A stretch of DNA of 40,227 nt, taken from Sulfuritalea sp. (GTDB lineage: Bacteria > Pseudomonadota > Gammaproteobacteria > Burkholderiales > Rhodocyclaceae). Made by a program: the position numbers and the translations under genes. The stretch is from assembly GCA_030696505.1 (NCBI GenBank), contig JAUYSD010000062.1, positions 1-40,227 on the forward strand. The letters are read 5' to 3'. The notes beneath the pieces were generated by a model, which had not been told where the DNA came from, did not search any database, and saw only the letters and a list, made by a program, of their open reading frames with translations. Each line of letters opens with the position of its first letter. Within the stretch, counting starts at the first letter, position 1. Positions 6,711 through 38,845 of this stretch are shown here, one piece after another.

Positions 6711-6734
6711 AGAGTTGGCGCTGGGGATACGGCA
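6711..6734 (+). repeat. 24-bp interspersed motif, copy a
   Basis: AGAGTTGGCGCTG followed by GGGATACGGCA, starting at the base after the VOC stop codon. It matches the AGTTGGCGCTG core exactly and the second half (ACGGC) closely. It fills the gap between the VOC gene and the 60-bp inverted repeat. Confidence 0.7.
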
Positions 6735-6754
6735 CAAATCTTGTGACGAAATCG

Positions 6755-6814
6755 TAGCGAGCACCGCCCAAGCTCCGATTCGGCACGCGCAGTAGATTTA
6801 TTCACAAACTTTCA
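6755..6814 (-). repeat. 60-bp inverted repeat, left copy
   Basis: Read on the minus strand it begins with the TGA stop of the SH3-like gene and runs through TGTGAATAAATCTACTGCGC to GGTGCTCGCTA. The right copy (12472-12531) matches 56 of 60 positions and also begins with a stop codon, that of the kinase gene. The two copies face outwards and bracket a four-gene block. Confidence 0.93.
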
Positions 6815-8248
6815 GCGGATGCTGACGGTGATCGCCTTCCAGGCCGGGCTCTGCCAGCGATAGAAGCTGCTCAGGTGGTTTGGCCGGTCGGCGCGTCTTT
6901 CCACTTCCAGCGTACTCATGCGCAGCAGCTCGAAGCTCTGTTTGTGGCGGCCCGCCACTCGGGCTTCGCGCGCCGCTAGCAGTTGTTTGCCGCCCGGCAC
7001 CCAGCCGGCGAATTCGACATAGCCGAGGCCGGGGTGGTCCGCGGCCGGCGGCACGACGTCGAGGCTCCAGCCCTGCGGCCCGCGGCGGAACACCCACAGC
7101 TCGCGCCAGGTGTCGAGCGGCTGCACCGCCAGTGCGAGCGCCGTGCCTTGCGGGTTGGGCGCGGCCGAGGCGGTCCACACGATGCCGTAAGTGCAGCGCG
7201 TCAGCAGCGGGTTCTTCAGATCGTGTTTGGCATCGACCAGATGCACGCAGGTTTCGCCAGGCTGGCCGGGGCTCGCCGCCACCGAAACTTTTTGCGCCTT
7301 CGCCGCCGGCGCGCCGGCTTCGGTGGCCCAGCGCGAGGCGCCGACGCGCATCGCGGCGTCACTGTAGGCGTAGGCGTCGCTTTCCATGAGTTCGCCCTGG
7401 TCGATGCCGGCGAGTTCATTCAGCGCACGCTGCCCCGCCTGCTGCACGGCGGGCGCGCCGAGTTCCGGGCGCCGCGCGCGCTGGTAGGCGAGGCTGGCCC
7501 AGACGCCGGCCTTGCGCAGGCGCAGGCGGTTCTTCAGCACTGCGGGCAGTTTGCTTGTATCGATGCGGTCGAGTATTTCGGCGCGCCAGTTGTCGTGCGC
7601 GAAGCGCTGCACTGGCGCGAGGTCCGGCGCCACGCAATCGTGGCGGGTCAGCGCCAGCGCGGCGGCGGCCTTTTGCGGCGCGGTGGCCGGCAGCGCCAGC
7701 ACGCGGCGATGCGCCTCGCCCTCGTAGCAAAGCCGCAGCTGTCCGTCGCGTTCGAAGCTGAGCATGTTCACGCCGTAGGCGGCGGCGACTTCGAGCTGGG
7801 CGGCGACGGCCGGACCCGCCTTGCCCTGCTGGGTGCCGGAAGCGCGCCGGGCCAGACGCTCGGCCATGGCGCCCAACGCATCGAAGGCCTCGCCGTCGAT
7901 GGCTGCGGCCGGCGCCGCCTTCAGGTAGGCCGCGGCGTAGGCGATGCCCAGCGCCTCCGAGCCCGGCGTGTCGCGCAGGAAGCGCAGCACCGCGAGCAGG
8001 TCAGGTGCGGCGGCCGGCTGCAGCGACTGGACGCGCACGCTGGGTGCCTTGATGTAGCCGGCGCGTTCGCGGCGATGGTCGTAGACCTGCAGGAAGTCGC
8101 CTTTCTCGCCGCGGACTTCGAGGCTGTCGCCGGCCCACAGCTGGGCTTGCTGGGGCGCCGAATCGCGCGGTGCGGCACGCAGCGCAGTCTGGTCCTGGGT
8201 GACGATGGCCAGCGCGGACAGCGCGGCAATTGCGGTGGCGGTCAGCAT
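6812..8248 (-). CDS. Secreted protein with N-terminal SH3-like domain, function unknown
   Basis: A protein of about 478 residues with an N-terminal hydrophobic stretch (LTATAIAALSALAIVTQ) that looks like a signal peptide. A bacterial SH3-like segment follows (about residues 20-70, with ALRAAPRDSAPQQAQLWAGD and VYDHRRERAGYIKAP). The rest is alanine-rich and mostly helical, with a C-terminal part that resembles beta structure but that I do not recognise. ATG at 8248 is preferred because GGGAGG lies 9 nt upstream; GTG at 8254 would overlap the SPFH stop as GTGA. It is coupled to the SPFH gene, so a shared envelope role is plausible but unproven. Confidence 0.75.
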   Translation of the reverse strand: MLTATAIAALSALAIVTQDQTALRAAPRDSAPQQAQLWAGDSLEVRGEKGDFLQVYDHRRERAGYIKAPSVRVQSLQPAAAPDLLAVLRFLRDTPGSEALGIAYAAAYLKAAPAAAIDGEAFDALGAMAERLARRASGTQQGKAGPAVAAQLEVAAAYGVNMLSFERDGQLRLCYEGEAHRRVLALPATAPQKAAAALALTRHDCVAPDLAPVQRFAHDNWRAEILDRIDTSKLPAVLKNRLRLRKAGVWASLAYQRARRPELGAPAVQQAGQRALNELAGIDQGELMESDAYAYSDAAMRVGASRWATEAGAPAAKAQKVSVAASPGQPGETCVHLVDAKHDLKNPLLTRCTYGIVWTASAAPNPQGTALALAVQPLDTWRELWVFRRGPQGWSLDVVPPAADHPGLGYVEFAGWVPGGKQLLAAREARVAGRHKQSFELLRMSTLEVERRADRPNHLSSFYRWQSPAWKAITVSIR

Positions 8249-8250
8249 GA

Positions 8251-9450
8251 TCACTCGCCTCCCTGCTTTCCGGCGCCGAGCAGGTTGGCGCCGATGAAGC
8301 CGCCGCTGGTCGAGGGCGGCGCGATGATCACCGAGATCTTGTCGGAGAGCTTGTCGGCCATGGTCTTCTGGATCAGCAGCGGATGCCTGGTGATCAGCTC
8401 GCCGTCGCGCGCCAGTTGTTCGCTGGCGACCTTGCCCAGGCGCTCCTGGCGATAGCCTTCGGCGTCGGCCAGCTTGCGCCGCGACTCGGCCTCTCCGGTG
8501 GCCTCGATCAGGCGCGATTGCGATGTGGCCTCGGCGGCCTTGACGCGGGTGATCTTGGCGGCTTCGGCTTCGAGTTCGCGCTGTTCGATCTGTTTCTGCT
8601 TGAACGGCAGCACATGCTTCATGGCTTCGGCCTGGGCCTTGGCGGCGATGATTTGTTCCTGGCCGGCGGCCTCGGCGGCCTTCTCGCGGCGCACCTTGTC
8701 GGCCTGGCCTTCGAGCTCGGTCTGCTTGACCTGCTTGTCCTTGAGTTCCAGCGTGTAGCGCATTTTCTCCGAGGCCAGTTCCTCGGCCAGCAGCCTTTCC
8801 ATGCCGGCCTTGTAGTCGGCCGGCAGGTCGATCTTGCCGATCATCACGCCCTGCAGCTTGATGCCGTCTTTCGCCAGCAGCGGCTTGAGTTCGCCTTCGA
8901 TCGCCTGCTGGATCGCCACGCGCTTGGTCGAGAAGATCTCGCGCACCGTGTAGCCGGCGAGCGTCTTGTAGAGCACGCTCTGCGCCGCCGGCTCGACCAC
9001 TTCGCGGCCGATATCGGCGGGCAGGGCGCGGGCCATGGCGGCGATGCGGCTGCGGTCGAGCACGTAGCGCACCGAGACGTCCACCCCGATCGAGAGGCCC
9101 TCGATGGTCTGGAAGGGCGCCGCGCCGCTGGCGCTCTGACCGTCGGCCGGACGGTAGATCTGGTCGCGCAGGGAAATGCGACGCAGCTCGTGCAGGCCGG
9201 GGATGATCAGCACGGCGCCGTCCTCCACTTCATCGACGACGCCGCTGAAGCGGTTGACGCGCAGGCCGAGTTCACCGCGGCCGACGCTCTGCAGCGGCGG
9301 GTTGCTGACGATGGCATAGGTGCCGATGCCGGCGACGGCCAGCGCGATGACGCCGCGCTGCGAGTCGCGCATGCGGCGGCCGAGGCGCTGGGCGATGGCT
9401 TCGACCGAGTCGCGCAGGTTGTTGGCGATGTTGCGGATTTGTTCCGACAT
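8251..9450 (-). CDS. SPFH/band-7 domain membrane protein
   Basis: The 399-residue product has one N-terminal membrane segment (about 35-52, GVIALAVAGIGTYAIVS). An SPFH/prohibitin-like domain follows (about 60-230, with VDVSVRYVLDRSRIAAMA and GVMIGKIDLP), then a long charged Glu/Lys/Ala-rich coiled coil (about 230-350). The tail is glycine-rich (SGGFIGANLLGAG). This is the stomatin/flotillin/HflK-like layout, typical of oligomeric membrane scaffolds. The start at 9450 has a GGAG site. It is the first gene of a pair with the SH3-like protein and is divergent from a two-component system. The reading frame upstream of 9450 lacks support. Confidence 0.88.
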   Translation of the reverse strand: MSEQIRNIANNLRDSVEAIAQRLGRRMRDSQRGVIALAVAGIGTYAIVSNPPLQSVGRGELGLRVNRFSGVVDEVEDGAVLIIPGLHELRRISLRDQIYRPADGQSASGAAPFQTIEGLSIGVDVSVRYVLDRSRIAAMARALPADIGREVVEPAAQSVLYKTLAGYTVREIFSTKRVAIQQAIEGELKPLLAKDGIKLQGVMIGKIDLPADYKAGMERLLAEELASEKMRYTLELKDKQVKQTELEGQADKVRREKAAEAAGQEQIIAAKAQAEAMKHVLPFKQKQIEQRELEAEAAKITRVKAAEATSQSRLIEATGEAESRRKLADAEGYRQERLGKVASEQLARDGELITRHPLLIQKTMADKLSDKISVIIAPPSTSGGFIGANLLGAGKQGGE

Positions 9451-9691
9451 GATGGCTTTCTCCAGGTCTTGATCTTCCGGGGATGGCGGCGGAGGCGGGA
9501 AGATCGATCGCCTTCCGTCATGGCTGCCATCGTCGCGGCAAGGCCGTGGAGCGATCCATGCCGTCGCGGGGCGACTTCGGTATGTCGTGGGTAGCACCCG
9601 TTCCGCGGCGTGAACAAACACTCACGCGCGGGCGCTGCCAAGGCCGGCAAAAACGGCGATACTTGGCGCAGACAATCGCGCGGAGCATGAA

Positions 9692-10402
9692 ATGAGCATC
9701 AAGGTCGCCGTCATCGAGGACGACATCCCCACCAGCAAGCAGCTCAGGGCCTGGATACTTTCCGCGCGGCCGGGCATCACGGTGGACGCCTGGTTCAACC
9801 GCGACGACGCCGAGGCCGCGATTGCCCGCGAGAACTACGACGTGGTGGTGCTCGACATCGAGCTGGGGCGCGAGCGCCATGCCGGCGTCGCCATCATCAA
9901 CGCCATCAACAAGGCCGCGCGCGGCACGCCGGTGCTGGTGGTGTCGGCCATGCCGGCCGCTATCTACCGCAGCATCATGAAGGCGCTCGACGCCTGGGAC
10001 TATTTGCAGAAAACCACTTTCGAGGAGGCCGATTTCATCGACACCTTCCTCGAAATCCTGCGCGCCTCGCGCGATCGCGAGGGCGCCAAGCCCGCCCAGC
10101 CTGCCGGCGACGAACTCGCGCTCGATCCCCTGCGGCAGAACACGCCGCTGTGGCGCGGCAAGCGCGTGAACCTGCCGCTGACCGCCCAGCGCATCCTCGC
10201 CGCGCTCTACCAGCGGCGCGGCCAGGTGGTGTCCTACGACGAGCTGTTCCAGGTGGTGAAGAGCGGGCGCAACCGCGACAACATCCGCAAGCACATCAGC
10301 ACCATCCGCGAGGCCTTCCGCGAACTCGACGAAGGCTTCGACCGCATCGAGAACGTGCCGATGCGCGGTTTCCGCTGGTCCGACCCGGCGGTCGGTAAAT
10401 GA
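9692..10402 (+). CDS. OmpR-type response regulator with atypical switch region
   Basis: A 236-residue protein: receiver domain at 1-120 with acidic pocket EDD (9-11), phospho-acceptor Asp55 (VVVLDIELG) and Lys107. A winged-helix DNA-binding domain follows (about 140-230, with VNLPLTAQRILAALYQ and RNRDNIRKHISTIREAF). In most receivers the conserved lysine is followed by proline; here it is LQKT, with Thr108. The gene is divergent from the SPFH/SH3 pair across about 240 bp, the natural place for its operator. Its stop overlaps the kinase start (ATGATG). Regulation of the neighbouring membrane genes is an inference from position. Confidence 0.88.
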   Translation: MSIKVAVIEDDIPTSKQLRAWILSARPGITVDAWFNRDDAEAAIARENYDVVVLDIELGRERHAGVAIINAINKAARGTPVLVVSAMPAAIYRSIMKALDAWDYLQKTTFEEADFIDTFLEILRASRDREGAKPAQPAGDELALDPLRQNTPLWRGKRVNLPLTAQRILAALYQRRGQVVSYDELFQVVKSGRNRDNIRKHISTIREAFRELDEGFDRIENVPMRGFRWSDPAVGK

Positions 10403-12474
10403 TGAAGGCGGCGCTGCAATGGCTGGCCTCGTTCCGCCTGCGCATCCTGTTTCGCACTTCCTTCCTGCTGCTGTCGCTGGCCGTGCTGGCGATGGCGGTG
10501 GCCGTGCTGCAGGAGGAAAAGCAGCGTAGCTACGACAGCTACCAGAGCCATGTGGCGAAGACCAAGGAGCAGATCGTCGCCCGCCTGCGCCACCCGGCCG
10601 GGCAACTGGCCCTGCTTAACCCGCCGCGCGGCAATGGCGCCGCGGTGGCGGGGCGGCCCGTGGTGTTGCCGTATTCGGCGATCGATTTCGACGACCAGAG
10701 CAAGGTCAGGAACGCCGTCGAAATGGCCGGCTGCCTGGTGCAGTACAAGCGTCATGGCAGCCTCTGCGTCGCCATCGGCAACAACCCCTGGGCCGGCGGC
10801 TACATCTATGCCGCCGGCACTTTCGCCAGCAATGCACTGGTGCCGCACGCCATCGGCGACGAACAACTCGACGGTGCGCATCGCCTGCGCGTGGTGGTCA
10901 ACCTGCGCGGCGAGACCTACCGCTGGCTGGCGCCCTTCGAGACGCTACCCGGCAACGGCACGCGTGCCGAGGGCGCGCGCGGCCGCTTCACCGGCTATGT
11001 CGAGCGCGAAGGCGCCAACTACAGGGGCGCGCGGCCGGTCAGGGAATTTCGCGGCTGGGTCTGGCAGGGCGGCAAGTGTCTCGATGCTGCGCAGGACGAA
11101 GCTGAGGGCGACTGCGCGCGCAAGTCCTTCTTCTCGCTGCGCCTGCCGGTCGATGTACTGCGCGAGGCGCTGTTCCGCGCGAAGAAGCCGCAGTGGCCGC
11201 CGCCCGACCTCGACCAGTTCCGCGTCCATGTCGAGGTGCTGGCGCCGGGCCCGGCCACCACTGGCGCGGCGATTTTCGACAGCGACGAGCCGGGCGCCGT
11301 GCCGCCGTTCTCGCTCAAGGACCTCGCCGGCCTGCTGCTGCCCGGCGAGACGCTGGCGATCCGCAAGGCCGGCGGCAGCGCCGACGTGGTGCAGTTGAGC
11401 GGCACGGAAGATGGCGCGGAGCCGTCCTCGCCGCTGATCACGCGGCTGATCCGCCGGCTGCCGGTGGCGAGCTACGACGCGCCGGTGGAATTCGCCGACG
11501 AAATCGCGACGCCGCTGGGCAGCTACCGGGTGCTGCTGAAGGGCGACGCGCGCAGCGTGAACCAGGCGCTGGCGGCGGTCGCCACGCGCGTCTCGTGGTT
11601 CGTCGGCGCCATGCTGCTGGCCATCGCGCTGGCCTGGCTGGTGATGGAAATCGGCATCGTGCGCCGCATCGCGCTGCTGACGCGGCGCACGCGCGGCCTG
11701 TCGCAGACCGTGCACACCGACGGCGGGCTGGAGCGCTTCGATCTGGCCGACCTGCGCGGCGGCGACGAGTTGGGCATCCTCGCCACCGGCCTCGACGACC
11801 TGCTGCGGCGCGTGAAGGAAGACGCCGAGCGCGAGCGCATCCGCGCCGGCCAGGAAAAGGACATGTGGCACGCCGTCGGCCACGAGATCATGTCGCCGCT
11901 GCAATCGCTGCTGGCCCTGCACGGCGGCAGCGACGACCCCAGCCATCGCTACATCCAGCGCATGCAGCAGGCGGTGCGCATCCTCTACGGCAGCGCCAGC
12001 CCGAGCGAGGCCTTCGAGTCGTCGAGCATCAGCGTGCAGGCGCTCGACCTCGCCCGCTTCCTGAAGAACGTGGCCGACAACGCCGGCATCGCCGATGTGG
12101 TGTGCACCGGTGTTGCGGCGCCGCTGCCGGTACGCGCCGACGAATACCCGCTGGAAGACGTGTTCGCCCACATCCTGAAGAACGCCGACCGCTACCGCCG
12201 GCCCGGCACGACCATCACCCTGGGTCTCGACAGCTCGGAGAGCACCGCCACGGTGAGCATCCACAATGTCGGCCCGCGCATCGCCGAAGACTTCATCGAG
12301 CGCATCTTCGAGTACGGCGTTTCCGACCAGGCCGAGGCCGGCGCCCACGGCAACCGCGGCCAGGGCCTGTTCGTGGCGCGCACCTACATGGCCAAGATGG
12401 GCGGCACGGTCATCGCGCGCAACGAGGACGACGGTGTCAGTTTCGTCCTGACGCTGCAGCGGGCACGCGGCTGA
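10399..12474 (+). CDS. Membrane sensor histidine kinase with large extracytoplasmic domain
   Basis: The 691-residue kinase has a first membrane segment at about 18-36 (FLLLSLAVLAMAVAVL) and a sensor region of roughly 360 residues that I do not recognise. A second membrane segment follows (about 397-415, SWFVGAMLLAIALAWLVM), then a HAMP-like linker and the phospho-acceptor helix with His495 in VGHEIMSPLQSL. The ATPase domain shows HILKNADRYRRPG (N box). The usual DxGxG is HNVGPRI here, and GNRGQGLFVARTYM is the G2 box. The N1/G1 boxes are therefore non-canonical. It is translationally coupled to the response regulator. Its stop codon lies inside the right copy of the 60-bp inverted repeat. Confidence 0.88.
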   Translation: MMKAALQWLASFRLRILFRTSFLLLSLAVLAMAVAVLQEEKQRSYDSYQSHVAKTKEQIVARLRHPAGQLALLNPPRGNGAAVAGRPVVLPYSAIDFDDQSKVRNAVEMAGCLVQYKRHGSLCVAIGNNPWAGGYIYAAGTFASNALVPHAIGDEQLDGAHRLRVVVNLRGETYRWLAPFETLPGNGTRAEGARGRFTGYVEREGANYRGARPVREFRGWVWQGGKCLDAAQDEAEGDCARKSFFSLRLPVDVLREALFRAKKPQWPPPDLDQFRVHVEVLAPGPATTGAAIFDSDEPGAVPPFSLKDLAGLLLPGETLAIRKAGGSADVVQLSGTEDGAEPSSPLITRLIRRLPVASYDAPVEFADEIATPLGSYRVLLKGDARSVNQALAAVATRVSWFVGAMLLAIALAWLVMEIGIVRRIALLTRRTRGLSQTVHTDGGLERFDLADLRGGDELGILATGLDDLLRRVKEDAERERIRAGQEKDMWHAVGHEIMSPLQSLLALHGGSDDPSHRYIQRMQQAVRILYGSASPSEAFESSSISVQALDLARFLKNVADNAGIADVVCTGVAAPLPVRADEYPLEDVFAHILKNADRYRRPGTTITLGLDSSESTATVSIHNVGPRIAEDFIERIFEYGVSDQAEAGAHGNRGQGLFVARTYMAKMGGTVIARNEDDGVSFVLTLQRARG

Positions 12475-12531
12475 GAGCTTGTGAATAAATCTACTGCGCG
12501 TGCCGGATCGGGGCTTGGGCGGTGCTCGCTA
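12472..12531 (+). repeat. 60-bp inverted repeat, right copy
   Basis: Begins at the TGA of the kinase gene and is 56/60 identical to the reverse complement of 6755-6814. All four differences are transitions. Confidence 0.93.
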
Positions 12532-12755
12532 TCCTCATGTACAAACGCGTACATTCCGGTAGCTGCGCTCCGGCCGCACCCCGCTGCGGCCCAGCGGCTA
12601 CGCCCCGAAGGAAGTCCCCTTGGGGGACGATTTCTTCGCAAGCTCTGATTCGGCCGCGGAAAGTTGGCGCTGATGAAGCCCCTGCGCAGCAAGGCGGTCG
12701 AGCAAAATACGCTCTCCTCGCCGCTGCGGATGGCGACACGGCGCGGCGCGGCGGG
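12532..12755. repeat. Mosaic intergenic repeat region between kinase and XRE genes
   Basis: No gene is supported. The stretch holds a small palindromic hairpin (GTACAAACGCGTAC), GC-rich stems around 12572-12604, and a strong stem GTCCCCTTGGGGGAC (12614-12628). It also contains AAGCTCTGATTCGGC (12640-12654), which repeats in inverted form part of the 60-bp element, and the core of the interspersed 24-bp motif at 12660-12672. The stems could terminate transcription of the convergent kinase and XRE genes, but no T-tract follows. Confidence 0.55.
12660..12683 (+). repeat. Interspersed motif, copy b (core only)
   Basis: AAAGTTGGCGCTG is exact, but the expected second half does not follow. A stretch GGCGACACGGCG fitting the second half occurs 60 bp further on (12732-12743). 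This may be a split copy or coincidence. Confidence 0.5.
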
Positions 12756-13460
12756 TCAGGCGTCGCGCTTGCCGCAGCGGCCATGAAATGCCATGGCCAT
12801 TTCGAATGCGGCGCGGGTGAAGGCCAGCACCGCAGCGAATTCCTGGTCGCTCAGTTTGCGCGCCTCGTCGTCGGCGCGGTAGATGTTGGCGAACTCGCGT
12901 TCGCGCGCCGACTGGATCAGCAGTTTGCCGACGCCGAGGTTTTCCAGGCTGCGCCACAGGTCGGGATTGGAACTGCGGGTGAACTTCATGACGAAGCCGA
13001 CCGGGTCGTTGCGGCCGAGCACCGCCGCCAGCCGTAGCACGATTTCGAAGGGCACCGCGATGCGGCCGTTTTCCCAGGCTTCGATCAGCGAGGGGTCCTT
13101 GAGGTTGATCGCCGCGCCGACCTCGGCAACGGTGAGGCCGGTGGCCTTGCGCAGGCGGCGCAGGGTCGCGCCGGTCCGCGTCCATACACCGGGTTCGGAA
13201 AAGCCCGGCAGCAAGGCCTTGAGCAGGTCGCCGGCGGCTTCCAGGGTCTTGCCCTTGGCCAGCGCCCGGGCCACTTCGCTCGCGGTGTGCAGGCTGGCCG
13301 CGGCGCCCACCGTGGCGGCGCCGATGTCGAGCACGCGGCCGGCCATCGCGCGCATCTGATCGACCAGACTGGATTCCGTCGCCTCAACTGTCGGCGCCAC
13401 GCGCCTGGCCGGCGCCCGCTTTCTGGCGGGCGCCTTGCGCTTGGGCGTGGCGGCGACCAT
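12756..13460 (-). CDS. XRE-type helix-turn-helix regulator
   Basis: A 234-residue protein. Residues 1-25 are Lys/Arg/Ala-rich and likely disordered. Residues 30-90 form an Ala-rich helical part with a run resembling a short hydrophobic segment. Residues about 98-160 carry an HTH of Cro/C1 type (TGLTVAEVGAAINLKDPSLIEAWENGRIAVPFEIVLRL region). A C-terminal helical domain of 70 residues ends the protein. The product probably binds DNA as a dimer; the target is unknown. It is followed in the same direction, upstream, by dksA with a gap of about 20 nt, so the two may be cotranscribed from the dksA promoter. Confidence 0.8.
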   Translation of the reverse strand: MVAATPKRKAPARKRAPARRVAPTVEATESSLVDQMRAMAGRVLDIGAATVGAAASLHTASEVARALAKGKTLEAAGDLLKALLPGFSEPGVWTRTGATLRRLRKATGLTVAEVGAAINLKDPSLIEAWENGRIAVPFEIVLRLAAVLGRNDPVGFVMKFTRSSNPDLWRSLENLGVGKLLIQSAREREFANIYRADDEARKLSDQEFAAVLAFTRAAFEMAMAFHGRCGKRDA

Positions 13461-13481
13461 GGGCGGGTGGGTCGTGCCGGA

Positions 13482-14561: not shown

Positions 14562-14624
14562 TACTCGCTAGCGGATAGCCGCTGGTTGCCGCCGCTTGCG
14601 CCGGTCCGTGTAGCGTCGGCGCCC

Positions 14625-14672: not shown

Positions 14673-14689
14673 CGTTCCCCGTGCGCTTC

Positions 14690-14713
14690 GCCGTGTCGCC
14701 AGCGCCAACTTTC
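14690..14713 (-). repeat. 24-bp interspersed motif, copy c
   Basis: Minus strand reads AAAGTTGGCGCTG then GCGACACGGCG. Core and second half both match the consensus. Confidence 0.75.
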
Positions 14714-22696: not shown

Positions 22697-23977
22697 TCAG
22701 CGCAGGAACAGCCGCGCGCTCGCTTGCGGATTGGACGGGAAATACAAATGCATGTAGGAGGCGGTGAGGCGGCCGCGGCGGTAGATCGCCTCGCCCTGGC
22801 GGCCGTCGGGCGTGCGGGCGTGCAGCAGCGGGACGAGGGCGGTTTCGCTGCGCGAGTGGTGGAAGGTGTGACCGCGCAAGCTGCCCTCCGGCAGTTCGGC
22901 CTGCTGCAGGTCGAGCGCGGCGAGGCGGGTTTGCATGCGCGTGGCGCCGGGCAGCAGGCCGGCCATGGCGTGGCTGACGCCATCCTGCTCGATGAGTTGG
23001 TCGAACAGGCACATCATGCCGCCGCATTCGGCGAGCAGGGGTTTGCCGGCGCCGGCGTGGGCGCGCAACTGCTGCCACAGTCCGCCTGCGCCGAGGCGCT
23101 CGGCGTGCAGTTCGGGGTAGCCGCCCGGCAGCCAGACGGCATCGCAGGCGGGCAGCGCGTCGTCCGCCAGCGGCGAGAAGAAGGCGAGTGTCGCGCCGAG
23201 TTCGCCCAGGGTGTCGAGATTGGCCGGATAGATGAAGCCGAAGGCGGCGTCGCGCGCGATGGCGATGGTCTTGCCGGCGAGCAGGGGTTCGAGAGTTGGC
23301 GCTGGCGGTACGGCGAAGTCGACGCTGGGCGGCAGGTCGGCCACTGCGCTGGCCGCGATGTGGTCCGCAAGCAGGTCGAGGCGTTGTTCCAGGTCGGCGA
23401 TCTCGGCGGCCTGCAGCAGGCCGAGGTGGCGCTCGGGCAGCGCCGCGCCGGCATCGCCCGGCAGGGCGCCGAACCAGCCCATGCCGGGCGGCAGGCTGGC
23501 CTTGAGCAGCTCCGCGTGATGGGCGCTGCCGACCCGGTTGGCGAGCACGCCGGCGAAAGGCAGGCCCGGGCGGTAAGTGGCGAGACCGTGGGCTACGGCG
23601 CCGAAGGTCTGGGCCATGGCCGCGGCGTCGATCAGGGCCAGCACCGGGATGCCGAAACGGCAGGCGATGTCGGCCGCCGAGGGACTGCCGTCGTAGAGGC
23701 CCATGACGCCCTCGACCAGGATCAGGTCGGCCGTCGCCGCGGCAGCGGCGAGACGCCGCGCCGCATCGTCTTCGCCGCACATGCCGAGGTCGAGGTTGTA
23801 CACCGGGGCGCCGCTGGCGACGGCGAGTATCTGCGGATCGAGAAAATCCGGACCGCACTTGAAGACGCGGACGCGGCGCCCCTGCCTGACATGATGTCGC
23901 GCCAGCGCCGCGGTCACCGTGGTCTTGCCCTGGCCGGAAGCCGGGGCGGCGATCAACAGCGCCGGGCAGCTCGGCAT
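22697..23977 (-). CDS. cbiA: Cobyrinate a,c-diamide synthase
   Basis: The 426-residue enzyme begins CPALLIAAPASGQGKTTVTAAL, an ATP-binding P-loop of the dethiobiotin-synthetase-like domain. The C-terminal half is a class I glutamine amidotransferase domain, with nucleophile region PLLAECGGMMCLFDQL and late His HTFHHSR. It amidates the a and c side chains of (hydrogeno)cobyrinate using glutamine. Its ATG shares one base with the cobO stop (TAATG). The upstream extension in frame is an artefact. Codons 219-228 or so (FAVPPAPTL) coincide with a copy of the interspersed 24-bp motif. It is the last gene of the btu/cob operon. Confidence 0.94.
   Translation of the reverse strand: MPSCPALLIAAPASGQGKTTVTAALARHHVRQGRRVRVFKCGPDFLDPQILAVASGAPVYNLDLGMCGEDDAARRLAAAAATADLILVEGVMGLYDGSPSAADIACRFGIPVLALIDAAAMAQTFGAVAHGLATYRPGLPFAGVLANRVGSAHHAELLKASLPPGMGWFGALPGDAGAALPERHLGLLQAAEIADLEQRLDLLADHIAASAVADLPPSVDFAVPPAPTLEPLLAGKTIAIARDAAFGFIYPANLDTLGELGATLAFFSPLADDALPACDAVWLPGGYPELHAERLGAGGLWQQLRAHAGAGKPLLAECGGMMCLFDQLIEQDGVSHAMAGLLPGATRMQTRLAALDLQQAELPEGSLRGHTFHHSRSETALVPLLHARTPDGRQGEAIYRRGRLTASYMHLYFPSNPQASARLFLR
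23285..23308 (+). repeat. 24-bp interspersed motif, copy d (inside cbiA)
   Basis: GAGAGTTGGCGCTG followed by GCGGTACGGCG (23291-23315). On the coding strand it yields FAVPPAPTL, a linker between the P-loop and amidotransferase halves of CbiA. Confidence 0.75.
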
Positions 23978-31220: not shown

Positions 31221-31252
31221 TCGGAAACTGATCGAAACTTGATCAGCAGCAA

Positions 31253-31280: not shown

Positions 31281-31380
31281 TATAGGTGTATGAAAACGAT
31301 CCAGTTGAAGCGAGCGCCGACCCGGTTGGCGACAGGCGCGGCAGGCGGATCCAACGACCGATGAACTAGGGATAAGGGAT

Positions 31381-31971: not shown

Positions 31972-32028
31972 GCATCGTGCATGCCAGGGCGGCGTCCATC
32001 CCGCCTGCATGGGTTGCGACCGACACGC

Positions 32029-32042
32029 TTGACACCGATCAA
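32029..32042 (+). promoter_or_regulatory. FNR-type box between nirT and the nirB-like gene
   Basis: TTGAC-ACCG-ATCAA fits TTGAY-N4-RTCAA. It lies only 43 bp before ATG 32085, close for a classical activator position, so it may be a fortuitous or auxiliary site. Confidence 0.5.
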
Positions 32043-32084
32043 ATCCGCCAGCTTTCAATGAAAATCGTTCGAAAGGAGCATCAA

Positions 32085-32909: not shown

Positions 32910-32922
32910 GCCGGGCCTACAG

Positions 32923-33252
32923 ATGTCCGTTGGCGGCTACCTGTTGCGGCGAGTGCCGGCCATGCTGGCACTCGTTTCGTTCGCCGCGGCGGCCCAGCAG
33001 ACGGTCGAAGTGTCGATTCAGGAGTACCGCTTTTCGCCGGCCGAAGTTCGCATCAAGGCCGGCGACACGGTAAAGTGGACCAACCGCGAAAAGCGCACCA
33101 GCCATTCGGTGCTCTTTCCCGCCGAAAACGGGCTCGAATCGGAGCGGATGTTTCCGCAGGAGCATTGGCAGCGGACCTTCACTCAGCCCGGAAACTACAG
33201 CTACCGCTGTGGTCCCCACGAAGAAATGAAGGGGCTGGTCCTTGTCGAATAG
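32923..33252 (+). CDS. Type-1 copper protein (cupredoxin, amicyanin/plastocyanin-like)
   Basis: A 109-residue small exported protein with a short signal segment (MLALVSFAAAAQQ). The cupredoxin fold is evident from YRFSPAEVRIKAGDTVKW, and all four copper ligands are visible: His61 (TSHSV), Cys96, His99 and Met102 (RCGPHEEM). The Cys-x2-His-x2-Met loop is the amicyanin-like spacing. Cupredoxins can donate electrons to cytochrome cd1. It occupies the slot of nirM (cytochrome c-551) in nirSTBMCFDLGH and is followed immediately by nirC, so a donor role to NirS is a reasonable inference. Confidence 0.88.
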   Translation: MSVGGYLLRRVPAMLALVSFAAAAQQTVEVSIQEYRFSPAEVRIKAGDTVKWTNREKRTSHSVLFPAENGLESERMFPQEHWQRTFTQPGNYSYRCGPHEEMKGLVLVE

Positions 33253-33571
33253 TGGCATTCCTTCCGTGCTGACCTTGCTGTTGCTGGGCTGTTTCGCGCT
33301 GCCCGCGGCGGCGGAGCCCTCGGCGGCGCGGCAGCAGGAATTGATCCACCTGGTGCGCCAGGATTGCGGCTCCTGCCACGGCATGACGCTGCAGGGCGGG
33401 CTGGGTCCGGCCTTGCTGCCGGCGACGCTGGCCGACAAGCCGGCCGAAGGACTGGTGGCCACCATCATCGGCGGCCGTCCGGGCACGCCGATGCCGCCCT
33501 GGCACCGCTTCCTTGCCGAAGACGAGGCGCAGTGGATAGTCGCCAAGCTGATGGCAGGCTTCCCGCAATGA
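33242..33571 (+). CDS. nirC: Monoheme cytochrome c, NirC-like
   Basis: A 109-residue exported cytochrome (signal VLTLLLLGCFALPAAAEP) with one CGSCH site (42-46) and a likely Met ligand near PGTPMPPW. NirC proteins of this size accompany heme d1 genes and can act as electron donor or in NirS maturation. No ATG fits: TTG 33242 overlaps the cupredoxin by 11 nt and has AAGGGG upstream, and GTG 33266 is the alternative. The stop overlaps the nirF ATG (ATGA). Confidence 0.82.
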   Translation: MSNSGIPSVLTLLLLGCFALPAAAEPSAARQQELIHLVRQDCGSCHGMTLQGGLGPALLPATLADKPAEGLVATIIGGRPGTPMPPWHRFLAEDEAQWIVAKLMAGFPQ

Positions 33572-34743
33572 GGCGCGCCGTGCAATCCCTGCTGCTCGGC
33601 CTCGTTGCGCTGCTGCTCGCCGCCTGTGTCGGCGCGCCCTTGCGCGGCACCGGCGATCTCGGCCTGGTGATCGAACGCGCCAGCGGCCACGTCACACTGG
33701 TGAATACTAGCTCGCGTTCCGCCTATGCGCGCATAGGCGGACTGGGCGATCTCTCGCACGCCTCGGTGGTGTATTCGCGCGATGCGCGCTATGCGTTCAT
33801 CTTCGGCCGCGACGGCGGCCTCTCCAAGGTCGATCTGCTCGAAGCCCGCATGGTCAAGCGCATCATCCAGTCGGGCAATGCGATCGGCGGCTCGATTTCG
33901 CAGGACGGCCGCATCGTCGTGGCGCAGAACTACACGCCGGGCGGGATCAAGGCCTTCGACGCCGATACGCTGGAACTGTTGTCGGAAGTCCCGGCCGAAT
34001 ATGCGCCGGGACGTTTCTCCAAGGTGGTGGGCCTGGCCGACGTGCCGGGCAACAAGTTCGCCTACGCGCTGTTCGACGGCGGCGAGATCTGGGTCAGCGA
34101 TTTTTCCGATCCGAAGCGGCCGGTGACCCAGCGCTACCCGGCTGGCCAGCAGCCCTATGACGGCCTGGTCACACCGAACGGACGCCACTACCTGGCCGGC
34201 CTCTTCGGCGAGGACGGCATTGCGCTGCTCGACCTCTGGCAGCCGGAACTGGGGGCGCGCAAGATCCTCGAAAAATACGGCCGCGGCGAGGAAAAGCTGC
34301 CGGTGTTCAAGATGCCCCATCTGCGCGGCTGGTCGGTCGCGGCGGGCCGCGCCTGGTTGCCGGCGATCGGCCGCCATGAGGTGTTGGTGGCCGATGCGGC
34401 GACCTGGCAGGAAACCGGCCGCGTCGCGGTCAAGGGCCAGCCGGTATTCGTCATGGCCAGCCCCGACGGGCGCCAGATCTGGGTCAATTTTGCTTTCCCC
34501 GACAACGGCTGGGTGCAGGTGATCGACACCCTGAGCGGAAAAGTAGTGCAGACCCTGCAGCCGGGCAAGGCGGTGCTGCACATGGAATTCACGCCGCGCG
34601 GCGAGGCCGTCTGGATCTCGGCGCGCGATGACAACCGCGTCCTCATCTACGACACGCGCAGCTTCCGCCAACTGGGCAGCCTGGCGGCCGATGCGCCGTC
34701 CGGCATCTTCTTCAGCAGTCGCGCCGCACGCATCGGATTCTGA
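33568..34743 (+). CDS. nirF: Heme d1 biosynthesis protein NirF
   Basis: A 391-residue lipoprotein-like product with signal LLLGLVALLLAAC (lipobox LAAC) and a beta-propeller homologous to the d1 domain of NirS. Blocks include YAFIFGRDGGLSKVDLLEA, VVAQNYTPGGIKAFD and GQQPYDGLVTPNGRHYLAGLF. It contains no CXXCH heme site. NirF is required late in heme d1 formation in the periplasm. It is coupled to nirC and lies 2 bp before nirDL. Length is typical. Confidence 0.93.
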   Translation: MRRAVQSLLLGLVALLLAACVGAPLRGTGDLGLVIERASGHVTLVNTSSRSAYARIGGLGDLSHASVVYSRDARYAFIFGRDGGLSKVDLLEARMVKRIIQSGNAIGGSISQDGRIVVAQNYTPGGIKAFDADTLELLSEVPAEYAPGRFSKVVGLADVPGNKFAYALFDGGEIWVSDFSDPKRPVTQRYPAGQQPYDGLVTPNGRHYLAGLFGEDGIALLDLWQPELGARKILEKYGRGEEKLPVFKMPHLRGWSVAAGRAWLPAIGRHEVLVADAATWQETGRVAVKGQPVFVMASPDGRQIWVNFAFPDNGWVQVIDTLSGKVVQTLQPGKAVLHMEFTPRGEAVWISARDDNRVLIYDTRSFRQLGSLAADAPSGIFFSSRAARIGF

Positions 34744-34745
34744 CC

Positions 34746-35756
34746 ATGGACTCGCCCTACAGCCCGCTCGAATACTCGCTGCTCAATGACTGGCAGCGCG
34801 AGTTCCCGATCGCCGCGCAGCCCTTCGGCGAACTCGGTGCAAGAGTTGGCGCTGACGAGACGGCGGTGCTGGCCACACTGCGGCGTTTGCAGGCGCGCGG
34901 CGCCATCAGCCGCGTCGGCGCGGTGTTCGCGCCGCGCCGCGTCGGTGCTTCGACGCTCGCCGCACTGGCGGCGCCGGTGGAACGGCTGGAACAGATCGCG
35001 GCGCAGGTCAGCGCGCGGCCCGAAGTCAATCACAACTACCAGCGCGAGCACCGCTACAACCTCTGGTTCGTCGCCACGGCGGCCGACCCGGCCTCGCTCG
35101 CCGCGGCGCTGGGCGGGATCGAGGGCGAGACCGGCTGCGCCGTGATCGCATTGCCGCTGGAGAACGAATATCACATCGACCTCGGCTTCGATCTCGGTTC
35201 GGCACACAAGCATCATGCCGAGCTGCCGAGCACACCGGCGCGCATGCCGGATGCGGCCGAGAAGGCTTTGATCGCGGCCCTGCAGCCCGGCCTGGAACTG
35301 GTGCCGCGCCCCTTTGCGCGCCTGGGCGAGCGCGTCGGCATGGATGAGGGCGAAGTGCTGGCACGTGTCGCCGGCTGGCTGGAGGAAGGGCTGATCAAGC
35401 GTTTCGGCGTGGTGGTGCGTCATCACGAGCTGGGCTACCGGGCCAATGCCATGGTGGTGTTCGATGCACCCGACGACCAGGTCGACCGCATCGGCCGCCA
35501 GCTTGCGGGCGAACCCGGCGTGACGCTGTGCTATCGCCGCCGACGCAGTCTGCCGGAGTGGCCGTTCAACCTGTATTGCATGGTCCATGGCCGCTCGCGC
35601 GAGGAAGTCCAGCCGGTGATCGAGCGCCTGAGCCGTCTGGCCGGCCTGCCGGCCCAGGCACTGTTTTCGACGCGCCGCTTCAAGCAGTGCGGCGCACGCT
35701 ATTTTGCCGACGCGTCACGTGGCACCGTGCCCATGGACGGCCTGGTCAATGCCTGA
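34746..35756 (+). CDS. nirDL: Siroheme decarboxylase, fused NirD-NirL
   Basis: A 336-residue fusion of two AsnC/Lrp-like units. The first (1-155) has HTH-like LRRLQARGAISRVGAVFAPR and the motif NHNYQREHRYNLWFV. The second (about 175-320) has VAGWLEEGLIKRFGVVVRHHELGYRANAM and TLCYRRRRSLPEWPFNLYCMVH. With NirG and NirH it decarboxylates siroheme at C12 and C18 to didecarboxysiroheme. Fusion of D and L occurs in several denitrifiers. Codons around residues 32-40 (ARVGADETAV) coincide with a copy of the interspersed 24-bp motif. It overlaps nirG by 8 nt. Confidence 0.92.
   Translation: MDSPYSPLEYSLLNDWQREFPIAAQPFGELGARVGADETAVLATLRRLQARGAISRVGAVFAPRRVGASTLAALAAPVERLEQIAAQVSARPEVNHNYQREHRYNLWFVATAADPASLAAALGGIEGETGCAVIALPLENEYHIDLGFDLGSAHKHHAELPSTPARMPDAAEKALIAALQPGLELVPRPFARLGERVGMDEGEVLARVAGWLEEGLIKRFGVVVRHHELGYRANAMVVFDAPDDQVDRIGRQLAGEPGVTLCYRRRRSLPEWPFNLYCMVHGRSREEVQPVIERLSRLAGLPAQALFSTRRFKQCGARYFADASRGTVPMDGLVNA
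34841..34864 (+). repeat. 24-bp interspersed motif, copy e (inside nirDL)
   Basis: AAGAGTTGGCGCTG then ACGAGACGGCG. It is translated as ARVGADETAV in the first AsnC-like unit, just before the HTH-like helix. Confidence 0.75.
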
Positions 35757-36222
35757 AGCCGCGGCGTCCGGCGCGGCGCTGGATGAAATCGACAAGCGGC
35801 TGATCAATGCCCTGCAGGGCGATTTCCCGCTGGTCGCCGAACCCTACCGCGAGGTCGCCGAATCGCTGGGCCTCAGCGAAACGGAATTGCTGCAGCGCCT
35901 TGAGTCGCTGCTCCAGCGGCGCGTGCTGACGCGCTTCGGTCCGATGTTCCAGATCGAACGCGCCGGCGGCGCTTTTGTCCTCGCCGCGATGAAGGTGCCG
36001 GAGCAGGAGTTCGAGCGCATCGCGGCGCAGGTCAATGCCTTCCCCGAAGTGGCGCACAACTACCGCCGTGAACATGCGCTGAACATGTGGTTCGTGCTGG
36101 CCACGGCGACGCCGCAGGGGATCGCCGAAACCATCGCGGCGATCGAGGCGGCGACCGGATTGCCGGTTTTCCCCTTCCCCAAGGAGCGCGAGTATTTCGT
36201 GGAAATGAAGCTCCATGCCTGA
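35749..36222 (+). CDS. nirG: Siroheme decarboxylase subunit NirG
   Basis: A 157-residue AsnC/Lrp-like protein with ALDEIDKRLINALQGDFPLV at the start, the HTH-like LLQRLESLLQRRVLTRFGPMF, and the signature VAHNYRREHALNMWFVLA shared with NirD. It is part of the NirDLGH siroheme decarboxylase. ATG 35749 overlaps nirDL by 8 nt and nirG itself overlaps nirH by 8 nt, with the same arrangement ATGCCTGA at both junctions, so the three are probably translated together. Confidence 0.9.
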   Translation: MPEAAASGAALDEIDKRLINALQGDFPLVAEPYREVAESLGLSETELLQRLESLLQRRVLTRFGPMFQIERAGGAFVLAAMKVPEQEFERIAAQVNAFPEVAHNYRREHALNMWFVLATATPQGIAETIAAIEAATGLPVFPFPKEREYFVEMKLHA

Positions 36223-36709
36223 ATCGAAACCCGATCTCGATGCAATCGATCGTCGCCTGATCGTCGCCACCCAGGGCGGTCTGCCGCGCGTGCCGCGGCC
36301 CTACGACGCGATCGGCGGCGAACTCGGCATCGGCGGCGACGAAGTGATCGCCCGCCTGCGGCGCATGCTCGATAACGGTGTGATCCGCCGTATCGGCGCG
36401 GTGCCCAACCACTATGCGATCGGCTACACGGCCAACGGCATGTCGGTGTGGGACGTCGATGACGCGCGCATCGACGAGCTGGGGGCCAGGGTCGGCACCC
36501 TCGAATTCGTCACCCATTGCTACCGGCGCCCGCGCCGGCTGCCGGACTGGCCCTACAACCTGTTCGCCATGGTGCATAGCCAGAATCGCGAAGAAGTGGC
36601 GGCCCGCGTGGCCGAGATCGCGGCCCTGCTGGGCGACGCCTGCCGGGCGCACGACATCCTCTACAGCACCGCCATACTCAAAAAAACCGGCCTGCGGATT
36701 GCCGGCTGA
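36215..36709 (+). CDS. nirH: Siroheme decarboxylase subunit NirH
   Basis: A 164-residue AsnC/Lrp-like protein with LDAIDRRLIVATQGGLPRVPRP, HTH-like IARLRRMLDNGVIRRIGAVPNHY and the NirL/NirH-type block THCYRRPRRLPDWPYNLFAMVH. It completes the NirDLGH set. It is the last nir gene on this strand; a dispersed repeat with a strong hairpin begins at the base after the stop codon, and no nirJ, nirE or nirN follows. Confidence 0.91.
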   Translation: MPESKPDLDAIDRRLIVATQGGLPRVPRPYDAIGGELGIGGDEVIARLRRMLDNGVIRRIGAVPNHYAIGYTANGMSVWDVDDARIDELGARVGTLEFVTHCYRRPRRLPDWPYNLFAMVHSQNREEVAARVAEIAALLGDACRAHDILYSTAILKKTGLRIAG

Positions 36710-36817
36710 GGTTAACGTGGAACGATAGGATGGGTCGCTGGTGATATCGAGCGTAGCGAGCCAGATAGTAGCCTCCCCGCGAGGGGAGGATGGGAGGGGC
36801 GGGCCTTTATGCCGCTT
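36710..36817 (-). repeat. Dispersed ~108-bp intergenic element, full copy 3 with hairpin
   Basis: Minus strand reads AAGCGGCATAAAGGCCCGCC, CCTCCCATCCTCCCC, hairpin CCTCCCC-TCGC-GGGGAGG (plus-strand 36772-36789), GGCTCGCTACGCTCGA, ending TTCCACGTTAACC. It matches copy 2 (16840-16951) in opposite orientation. It fills almost the whole gap between the convergent nirH and cytochrome genes and could terminate both. Confidence 0.85.
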
Positions 36818-36825
36818 TTCGATTC

Positions 36826-37479
36826 TTACTGCTGTTCCTGCAGGCTGGTGATGTAGGCCAGTATGTCCTGCATGTCCTCTTCCCTGAGCTTGTTGAGCAG
36901 GCCGCCGATCGCCTCTTCGTCGTGCGGCCGATCGCCCTTCACGTATTTGTCCATCTGCCGCTTCAGGTAGCTCGTGTATTGGCCGACCAGCATCGGGAAC
37001 ATGCCGCGGCCCATGCCGGTCTTGCCGTGGCAGGTATGGCACTGCTTCTGATAGATCGCTTCGCCATTGGCGAGCTTGCCCGGCACGCGCGGAATGATCA
37101 TGACGCGCTCGGTCATGGTCAGGCGCGTCAGCGCGTCGTCGCTATCCTTGAACACCGGCCACTTGGTCGGCAACTCGATCGATGCCAGATAGGCGGCGAC
37201 ATCCCTGATGTCCTCGTCCGGCAGCTCGCGTTCCTGGGTGTAGGGATACATCGGAATGTTGATGCGGGTGCGGGCGCGGAAGGCCTTGAGTTGGGATTCG
37301 AGATACTTGGCGCCCTGGCCCGCGAGGCGCGGGTATTCGCCGCGCGAGCCGCCCTGGCCGAATTCGCCATGGCAACCGGCGCAGGTGCTGTTGATTTCCT
37401 TGCCCTTGTCGAGGTTCTGGGCCTGTCCGGCGAGGCTGAAGAGAGCCGTCAGCCAGAGCAGTGCGAGTCGCAAGCTCAT
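36826..37479 (-). CDS. Diheme cytochrome c (c4-like)
   Basis: A 217-residue exported protein with signal MSLRLALLWLTALFSLAGQAQ and two cytochrome c domains, CAGCH (33-37) and CHTCH (147-151). Met ligands are likely near RINIPMYPYTQ and GRGMFPMLVGQ. Such c4-type donors feed cytochrome oxidases or nitrite/nitric-oxide reductases. ATG 37479 gives a good signal peptide but has no ribosome-binding site; a 13-bp tandem duplication occupies that place. ATG 37527 is an in-frame alternative. It is divergent from regB. Confidence 0.85.
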   Translation of the reverse strand: MSLRLALLWLTALFSLAGQAQNLDKGKEINSTCAGCHGEFGQGGSRGEYPRLAGQGAKYLESQLKAFRARTRINIPMYPYTQERELPDEDIRDVAAYLASIELPTKWPVFKDSDDALTRLTMTERVMIIPRVPGKLANGEAIYQKQCHTCHGKTGMGRGMFPMLVGQYTSYLKRQMDKYVKGDRPHDEEAIGGLLNKLREEDMQDILAYITSLQEQQ

Positions 37480-37482
37480 ATT

Positions 37483-37508
37483 GGTCGATCCGCGCGGTCG
37501 ATCCGCGA
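37483..37508. repeat. 13-bp tandem duplication in the cytochrome leader
   Basis: GGTCGATCCGCGC followed by GGTCGATCCGCGA, immediately upstream of the cytochrome ATG, where the ribosome-binding site would be expected. Confidence 0.8.
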
Positions 37509-37554
37509 AAGTGGTGATGCGGCACATTGTCGCAGGCCTTGGGTGAAATTTTCC

Positions 37555-37568
37555 TTGATCTATATCGG
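37555..37568 (+). promoter_or_regulatory. Weak FNR-like site in the cytochrome/regB divergent region
   Basis: TTGAT-CTAT-ATCGG matches eight of ten positions of the FNR palindrome. It lies 12 bp before the regB ATG and about 80 bp from the divergent cytochrome gene. Confidence 0.3.
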
Positions 37569-37579
37569 ATAATCGCCGA

Positions 37580-38845
37580 ATGACTCCTTCCAGCCCCGTC
37601 GAGGACGCGCGCAACCTGCGGCTCAACCAGCGTCGTGCGGTGATCCTGCGCTGGTGGTTGCTGGCGGCCGTGGCGATCGCCGTGTCGTCAGCGCCAACTT
37701 TGCTCGACATCGCCTTGCCGCAATTGCCGATGTTCGCCGTGATTGTGCTGATGGCGGGTTTCAACGCCGTTCTCGAATGGCGCGCGCGAACGGATCAAGC
37801 GGTGGGCGCCGGCGAGCTGTTCAGCCAACTGTGCGTCGATCTGGTGGCGCTGGCGATCCTGTTGTATCTGTCGGGCGGAGCGGTGAATCCGCTGATATCT
37901 TTTCTGCTGGTGCCGGTTGCCGTCGCCGCGCTGTCCTTGCCCGGCATTCTCACCGCTGCCGTCGCTGTGCTGGCGGTGGCGCTGTATACCTTGCTGATGC
38001 GGCACTTCCTGCCGCTCGCCGTGGCCGACGTCGAGCGCGCTGCGCGCCTGCATCTGGCCGGCATGTGGCTGACTTTCGTGGTTTCCACGGCGATGATCGC
38101 GTGGTTTGTGGCGCGCATGACGGCGTCGATCCGCGCACGCGACAGCCGCCTGGCCGCCGCGCGCGAGCAGGCGCTGCGCGACGAACGCGTGGTGGCGCTG
38201 GGCGCGCTGGCCGCCGGCGCCGCGCATGAACTCGGCACGCCGCTGGCCACTATCGCCGTGCTGGTCGGCGAACTTGAGCGCGAGGCCGGTCTCGATGCCG
38301 GCGCGCGCGAAGATCTGGCGCTGGTGCGCGAGCAGATTGCACAATGCAAAGGCATCATCAGCGGCATGGCGGCACGTGCCGGCGCGCTGCGGCCGGATCA
38401 GATCCAGGCACAGGAGGCGGGCGCCTGGCTGGAAGGCGTGCGTGCGCGCTGGCATGCGATGCGGCCCCGCGCCTCCAGCCGCCTGAGTCTGGAGGGCACG
38501 GCAACGCCTCTGATCGCGACCGAAGCCACGCTGGAGCAGGCCGTGGTCAACCTGCTCAACAATGCAGCCGACGCGAGTGCCGCCGAAATCGACATCCGGC
38601 TGATCCGTGAGCCGGCGACACTGACGATAGTGATCAGGGACGGCGGCCCCGGCTTTCCTGCCGAGGTGCTGCGCTACGCCGGTCGCGCGCCGATGCCGGC
38701 GCGCAGCGGCGGCGCCGGCATCGGCCTGCTGCTGGCATTTTCTGCCGTCGAGCGGCTGGGCGGACGCATCGTGCTGGACAATCCTTCGCCTGGCGGCGGC
38801 CGGGCCACCATCGAACTGCCGGTCGCGCGCAGCGCCGAGCCATGA
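37580..38845 (+). CDS. regB: Redox sensor histidine kinase RegB/PrrB
   Basis: The 421-residue kinase has six hydrophobic segments in the first 190 residues. The loop LSGGAVNPLISFLLVP contains the GGxxNP quinone-site motif of RegB. The His box is AAGAAHELGTPLATIAVL with His216. Cys256 in REQIAQCKGII is where RegB has its redox-active cysteine. N box VVNLLNNAADAS and RDGGPGF/GGAGIGLLLA follow. RegB responds to quinone redox state and controls anaerobic respiration, so its place beside nir genes fits. Residues 34-43 (AVSSAPTLLD) coincide with a copy of the interspersed 24-bp motif. Its stop overlaps regA (ATGA). Confidence 0.9.
   Translation: MTPSSPVEDARNLRLNQRRAVILRWWLLAAVAIAVSSAPTLLDIALPQLPMFAVIVLMAGFNAVLEWRARTDQAVGAGELFSQLCVDLVALAILLYLSGGAVNPLISFLLVPVAVAALSLPGILTAAVAVLAVALYTLLMRHFLPLAVADVERAARLHLAGMWLTFVVSTAMIAWFVARMTASIRARDSRLAAAREQALRDERVVALGALAAGAAHELGTPLATIAVLVGELEREAGLDAGAREDLALVREQIAQCKGIISGMAARAGALRPDQIQAQEAGAWLEGVRARWHAMRPRASSRLSLEGTATPLIATEATLEQAVVNLLNNAADASAAEIDIRLIREPATLTIVIRDGGPGFPAEVLRYAGRAPMPARSGGAGIGLLLAFSAVERLGGRIVLDNPSPGGGRATIELPVARSAEP
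37678..37701 (-). repeat. 24-bp interspersed motif, copy f (inside regB)
   Basis: Minus strand reads AAAGTTGGCGCTG then ACGACACGGCG. On the coding strand it gives AVSSAPTLLD at the end of the first membrane segment; copy d in cbiA gives a similar peptide in the same frame. Confidence 0.75.

Follow-up and report, generated by a model that had tools for sequence, protein, structure and literature searches.

DNA uptake sequences have been described for the Neisseriaceae and the Pasteurellaceae, mainly mucosal families, and competition with the abundant host DNA present on mucosa may matter for them, according to the cited sections of PMC7811141. In the Neisseriaceae, the DNA uptake sequence (DUS) is reported, in the parts of PMC3630211 and PMC2397512 drawn on here, to occur in very many copies at permissive core-genome sites, to be absent from recently acquired genes and to be strictly conserved, with dialects that differ between species. 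The uptake signal sequence (USS) of the Pasteurellaceae, as presented in the relevant passages of PMC12616744 and PMC7811141, comprises a core and an extension, occurs in dialects (Hin and Apl) with a fairly even spread and has a predicted minor-pilin receptor, PpdA/ComN. Here we describe a word of about 25 bp which recurs in a 40,227-nucleotide stretch of DNA (the window; contig JAUYSD010000062.1) from Sulfuritalea sp., a genus assigned to the Rhodocyclaceae by GTDB and to the Sterolibacteriaceae, Nitrosomonadales, in the NCBI taxonomy, and which is repeated throughout the genomes of many of its relatives. The word is a real, large, conserved and dialect-forming genome signal. It is likely to constitute a third, independent DNA uptake sequence system whose receptor may be a minor pilin of a type IV pilus, and we infer both function and receptor.

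As far as the cited sections describe them, the DUS, which are read by the receptor ComP, resemble this word in copy abundance, permissive sites, strict conservation and dialects between relatives. However, the sequences are unrelated, DUS measure 10–12 bp as against about 25 bp here, and the present copies are spaced at one per 6–7 kb with almost no close pairs, their uptake bias and receptor being putative. A core with an extension, dialects and a fairly even spread are shared with the Pasteurellaceae USS; again the sequence is unrelated, and the second half of the word is GC-rich and nearly as conserved as the core, unlike the USS extension which, in those same sections, is AT-rich and less conserved. 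A literature search returned no report of an uptake sequence in this bacterial group among the matches listed, most subscription papers and preprints falling outside its scope, and a search for the 11-base core gave only unrelated papers among the matches listed.

Alignment of copies defined the repeat unit as a non-palindromic word, RARAGTTGGCGCTGRCGANACGGCG, lacking terminal repeats. In a profile built from 63 copies of the window's genome (G000; 4.447 Mb in 398 contigs) and 153 copies of other genomes, information spans bases -3 to 21 (R A R A G T T G G C G C T G R C G A N A C G G C G). A weakly conserved C precedes the 25-bp word, the columns outside are close to background (at most 0.32 bits), and almost no information is found more than 4 bases out. 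The preliminary description of the window had reported six exact copies of an 11-base core, AGTTGGCGCTG, and these sites are all present, with coordinates that needed correction by 0–3 bases: 6713, 12662, 23294 and 34844 on the plus strand and 14700–14710 and 37689–37699 on the minus strand. Cores at up to one mismatch number 11, as against a mean of 1.4 and a maximum of 6 in 100 dinucleotide shuffles. The second half attributed to five of the six was recovered at 6713, 14689, 23294, 34844 and 37678 (at most 2 mismatches over 22 bases). At up to 5 mismatches the window yields 11 matches and simulated windows a mean of 2.35 (n=60), and this is the background level because the reversed window yields 10; the site at 12662, with 5 mismatches over 22 bases, lies at that level and consists of the core only. 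Copies at up to 3 mismatches occurred in 0 of the 60 simulated windows. The 22-base word at up to 2 mismatches is present in six copies, at 1221, 6713, 23294 and 34844 on the plus strand and at 14689 and 37678 on the minus strand; five of these had been listed earlier, together with 12662, and the copy at 1221–1242 had been overlooked. The names cbiA, nirDL and regB given earlier to three of the genes fit their products, namely CobB/CbiA, NirDL (siroheme decarboxylase AhbA-AhbB) and a RegB-type kinase, with the RegB models scoring below curated cut-offs. The sites are as follows, T and C referring to base 4 of the word.

1221–1242, plus strand: copy AGTCGGCTCTGGCGAGACGGCG, C-type, 1 mismatch, inside a cbiET-like gene (31–1344, minus strand)
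6713–6734, plus strand: copy AGTTGGCGCTGGGGATACGGCA, 2 mismatches, intergenic, 2 bases past the stop of a gene at 6297–6710 (plus strand)
12662–12672, plus strand: 11-base core only, second half absent, between convergent genes at 10399–12474 (plus strand) and 12756–13460 (minus strand)
14689–14710, minus strand: perfect T-dialect copy AGTTGGCGCTGGCGACACGGCG, intergenic
23294–23315, plus strand: copy AGTTGGCGCTGGCGGTACGGCG, 1 mismatch, in the CbiA/GATase_3 domain linker of the cobyrinate a,c-diamide synthase gene (22697–23956, minus strand)
34844–34865, plus strand: perfect copy AGTTGGCGCTGACGAGACGGCG, inside nirDL/ahbAB (34746–35756, plus strand)
37678–37699, minus strand: perfect copy AGTTGGCGCTGACGACACGGCG, inside the regB-type kinase gene (37580–38845, plus strand)

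In the whole of G000, the 22-mer at up to 3 mismatches occurs 653 times (313 plus, 340 minus) as against once for the reversed control, and the exact 11-mer 455 times (223 plus, 232 minus) as against 12. The count is far above random, as a selected signal requires, and the excess is genome-wide and on both strands, as for DUS and USS. In an unbiased k-mer count over 423 kb of G000, pieces of the word were top-ranked among 9-, 10-, 11- and 12-mers, and the density amounts to about one copy per 6–7 kb. Placement was examined in these 423 kb and in G460, a genome of the same genus available as one 3.80-Mb contig and sampled as 55 stretches of 20 kb (1.1 Mb), with genes predicted by a home-made gene caller (91–92% coding). 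Intergenic copies are in excess, at 25 of 72 in G000, where 5.6 would be expected, and at 58 of 188 in G460, where 16.4 would be, with 0 copies of the reversed word in either sample, and convergent gaps are favoured (8 versus 4.0 expected and 22 versus 11.2 expected, respectively). They lie near 3' ends, at a median of 21–29 bases past the stop. The 65–69% of copies that are intragenic occur in either orientation and at any relative position within the gene, and two frames, translated as VGAGDTA and AVxPAPTL, predominate; the peptide AV-x-x-APTL, which had been noticed as common to cbiA and regB, is accordingly the translation of the word in one tolerated frame.

Copies are spaced more evenly than uniform placement would give; a coefficient of variation no higher than that observed arose in a fraction 0.015 of 1000 simulated placements for G460 and 0.001 for G000. 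Chi, matS and the FtsK orienting polar sequences (KOPS) are likewise short over-represented words, and they are biased toward one replication strand or chromosome region. The present word differs from them in its length of 25 bp, in having dialects within one genus and in showing no significant strand or region bias. In G460, the one complete genome used for this comparison (1.1 of 3.8 Mb, with origin and terminus set by GC skew), 129 copies are leading and 101 lagging, which is not significant (p=0.07). By region, 87 copies fall in 18 stretches near the origin, 68 in 17 between and 75 in 20 near the terminus, giving 4.83, 4.0 and 3.75 per stretch without restriction to origin or terminus.

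Between 117 and 676 copies are present in 56 of the 395 genomes sampled from the family, and these 56 belong to seven genera. A sample of 399 genomes from the order included 13 members of the family, and each genome outside the family has 0–7 copies. Carriers comprise 22 of 23 genomes of the window's genus (311–676 copies; the exception, G628, has 29), 18 of 19 in genus g2 (117–508 copies; the exception, G633, has 1), 4 of 4 in g6, 9 of 9 in g215 and the single sampled genome of each of g166, g172 and g192. The next counts besides G628 are those of G439 (29), G419 (28) and G448 (16), with all others at 12 or fewer, in a T-type counting pattern which undercounts other dialects. Named carriers, identified by exact matches in at least 79 stretches, are Sulfuritalea sp., Sulfurisoma sp., Rhodocyclaceae, Rhodocyclales and uncultured beta proteobacterium, all metagenome-assembled genomes (MAGs), some with groundwater and water-column names. 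Records of this kind share orthologous stretches of 83–96% identity with the window's genome, which suggests that the window comes from Sulfuritalea or a close relative. For the near-loss genome G628, no substitute word appeared among the top-listed enriched 9–12-mers of 287 kb, and only one of 66 G000 sites had a spanning orthologue in the sample, decayed to 5 mismatches. In other families, 2–3 C-type copies each were found within 4–7 kb in genomes nearly without copies, at G035:C3 26363–30944, G011:C29 70403–74366, G302:C55 7700–14339 and G201:C24 160–7177, exact or with up to 2 mismatches, as raw matches which are not normalised. Each of these four clusters is possibly a segment from a carrier, the word then being a watermark of the transfer.

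How a copy originates could be followed in cbiA, where the word lies in the linker joining the two domains of cobyrinate diamide synthase. We aligned 20 of 46 matches (full length, at least about 64% identity), leaving out 24 distant ones (36–40%) and two partial ones. Of the 15 cbiA genes from carriers, including a second one in G000, 12 have the word at up to 3 mismatches and two at 4; in G642 it is broken by extra bases, and in G432 it is intact with 9 extra bases beside it. The five non-carrier genes have the same 22-base length at the site and other bases, with 6–13 mismatches. This alignment, the check that had been proposed earlier for cbiA, shows that the word there arose by substitution in pre-existing sequence and not by insertion, and it speaks against the suggestion of a small mobile repeat able to insert in frame within genes, given that the non-carrier sites have the same length. 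The second cbiA of G000 (G000:C283 1482–2735, L352) is 65% identical to that of the window and carries the word, in C-type form, at the corresponding point of the linker.

Dialects were compared at orthologous sites. Of 100 copies in the sampled G000 DNA, 21 could be aligned over the whole site with the sampled G460 DNA, and 17 of these keep the word ungapped between flanks of 72–92% identity; the other four are poor gapped alignments (59–74%). The word is thus kept better than its flanks, at permissive sites and without insertion, as are DUS and USS. When base 4 was left free, the 69 sampled copies of G000 divided into 59 with T and 10 with C, and G460 gave C in 200 of 200. At 16 of the 17 retained sites a T in G000 corresponds to a C in G460, the remaining one having C in both; another orthologue set had been selected for bearing the word, and this 21-site comparison is the less selected test. 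Local selection would not readily produce an identical one-base difference at each of the 16 T sites; uptake-driven conversion predicts it. With a C-type pattern applied to the 395 genomes, G000, G642 and G691 fall below their own T-type counts and the other 20 of the genus rise, the two patterns using different mismatch limits. G412 has the dialect TTYGCCAGTTGGTGCTGGTGACACGCCGTT (13 matches in 50 kb, reversed 0). G439 reads AGTCGACGCTGG... (AGTCGACGCTG) at ten of ten places among the matches listed, and its dialect is less sure. For G419, iteration of the position weight matrix (PWM) drifted into unrelated sequence and no dialect was assigned. Lineage-specific dialects, as known for DUS and USS, are therefore present here too. 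At single sites, G399, which is C-type by counts, has T in cbiA, and a copy on the comEC contig of the window's genome (G000:C125 2522, L217) has as its G460 orthologue a perfect C-type copy.

Host transformation machinery, a companion of DUS and USS, is present and is common to carriers and non-carriers. ComEC was found in 60 of 60 genomes, DprA over its cut-off in 39 of 41 and a ComP_DUS pilin (PF16732) in 40 of 41, irrespective of the word. Since all three are near-universal in the tested genomes, their presence does not mark carriers and was ruled out as a marker. A ComP-like pilin with the ending Cys-Trp-x4-Gly-Gly-x-Cys (Ser-Gly in G000), adjoining a FimU/GspH pilin, was seen in carriers G000, G412, G460, G150, G020, G491, G506, G611, G536 and G248, in a survey of one locus per genome (two for G000) in which G432, G691 and G515 (best match another pilin) are little informative on loop type. 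Outside these carriers, it is found in G419, a weak carrier, and in the near-loss G633, is altered in the loop in the near-loss G628 and, in non-carriers G111, G278 and G425, has Asp or Ser ahead of the second Gly; for this reason the loop-type pilin is a candidate receptor and not a marker.

The minor-pilin operon was compared among 16 genomes chosen for a visible loop-type pilin or for the altered form of G628. G000 and G412, which both read AGTTGG and belong to different genera, are mutually closest in this operon, with 45% identity for the ComP-like pilin (next 44%, G536 and non-carrier G425), 50% for FimU (next 35%) and 53% for a PilW-like pilin (next 40%); G000 and G460, of one genus, share 34% for the ComP-like pilin and 32% for FimU. 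In the ComP-like tree, G000 and G412 are set apart from the 14 remaining genomes with 100% support, and the FimU and joined trees separate the pair from 13 remaining genomes with the same support. In this one comparison the operon lineage divides in the same way as base 4, and as a single contrast it is a lead, not a test. Two further pairs, G248/G506 and G611/G536, each cluster across a genus boundary, with respective support of 97% and 96% for the ComP-like pilin, 76% and 98% for FimU and 100% and 100% for the joined sequences. It looks as if the minor-pilin operon moves between carrier genera.

The mechanism which we propose is that the uptake machinery would bind a genome-wide tag, such that DNA released by relatives would be taken up preferentially and recombined in. 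Its first two elements are seen in the genomes: a 25-bp word at about one per 6–7 kb, on both strands, evenly spread, enriched in permissive places and, at cbiA, made by substitution; and dialects that differ at fixed positions between related genomes, with orthologous copies differing together. A surface receptor would read the word, and biased uptake with recombination would drive sites to the receptor's preferred form by molecular drive, so that a change of receptor would lead to the sites being rewritten. More speculatively, the receptor might be a minor pilin of the type IV pilus operon, either the ComP-like protein with its C-terminal Cys-Trp...Gly-x-Cys loop or the adjoining FimU/GspH. 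In the fullest version, environmental bacteria would hold a third, independently evolved uptake system with an unusually long word; transfer between genera would have replaced the minor-pilin operon which reads its dialects, and the sites would then have been rewritten one by one across the genome. This version is put forward tentatively, at rather less than even confidence.

Acquired DNA bears on the uptake reading in both directions. Two of the 55 G460 stretches, L256 and L220, lack a PWM hit. The former is a conjugative element, in which TraC, TraE, TraL, TraA and SXT-type TraD exceed their NCBIfam cut-offs and TraH, TraF, TraB and TraK fall short of theirs; the latter is a low-GC island, at 58.6% GC against a mean of 63.3% for the sample, and encodes sulfatase, AMP-ligase and oxidoreductase proteins. 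Stretches richer in GC hold more copies (Spearman 0.48, p=2e-4), and this correlation is a stronger sign of a possible rarity of the word in acquired DNA than the count of empty stretches.

Several observations weigh against the uptake reading. Two empty stretches of 55 are within chance by count, about 0.8 being expected at 4.2 copies per stretch, and at least 120 viral-contig stretches carry the exact word, a raw count which is not normalised. Close pairs are nearly absent: the G460 sample contains one whose copies are no more than 150 bp apart, and G000 none; in Neisseria, closely spaced pairs form terminators. No DprA over the cut-off was found in carriers G399 (676 copies, 99% complete) and G691 (83% complete). 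ComEC, DprA and ComP_DUS pilins are retained by G628 (29 copies) and G633 (1 copy) and occur also in genomes without the word; G439 has no ComP_DUS match, and G515 has one without the loop. Moreover, the A of the dialect proposed for G439 stands at base 6 in only half of its 42 PWM hits (reversed 1) in 131 kb of contigs chosen for holding matches. As to the viral loci themselves, in L355–L434 (80 of the at least 120) all 115 copies at up to 2 mismatches are C-type, and among ten viral-contig proteins scanned some are clearly phage-like, including a tail spike (L383) and primases (L391, L395).

Other explanations have to be weighed against this background. Hundreds of conserved, even, genome-wide sites would also be expected if a cytoplasmic chromosomal protein, serving nucleoid organisation or occlusion, segregation or a recombination-stimulating site, bound the word, and altered specificity between lineages could also yield a change of dialect. 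We regard this as unlikely, given the insignificant leading-strand bias (129:101), the lack of concentration at origin or terminus, the absence of the word from the sampled part of the resident conjugative element and the reading of one and the same base at all 16 of the orthologous T sites; we know of no mechanism which would produce such uniformity without biased uptake or gene conversion. The enrichment of intergenic copies just past stop codons might suggest a transcription-factor site or a transcription terminator. This is very improbable for a non-palindromic word which lies mostly within genes in either orientation and which, beside gene ends, points the same way as the gene about as often as the opposite way (same:opposite 35:36 and 12:17).

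The many near-identical copies in both orientations could also recall a short mobile repeat inserting in frame within genes, of the kind of repetitive extragenic palindromic (REP) sequences or miniature inverted-repeat transposable elements (MITEs). Neither a discrete inserted unit nor empty sites in relatives were found, however; terminal repeats are lacking, information ceases close to the word, the equal length of the five non-carrier cbiA sites refutes insertion at that site, and 17 of 21 orthologous sites align ungapped across the word, the other four being poor alignments, which leaves this origin with hardly any probability. Of the possibilities raised in the preliminary description, a selected short signal in its uptake-like version is best supported, by abundance, occurrence on both strands, even spacing and dialects.

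If the word is indeed an uptake sequence, a mucosal setting would not be required for such systems, because its carriers include MAGs with names that refer to groundwater and the water column. Close relatives with different dialects, together with the near-losses in G628 and G633, would make the coevolution of receptor and word testable, and the word could act as a watermark with which to trace the movement of DNA among these bacteria.

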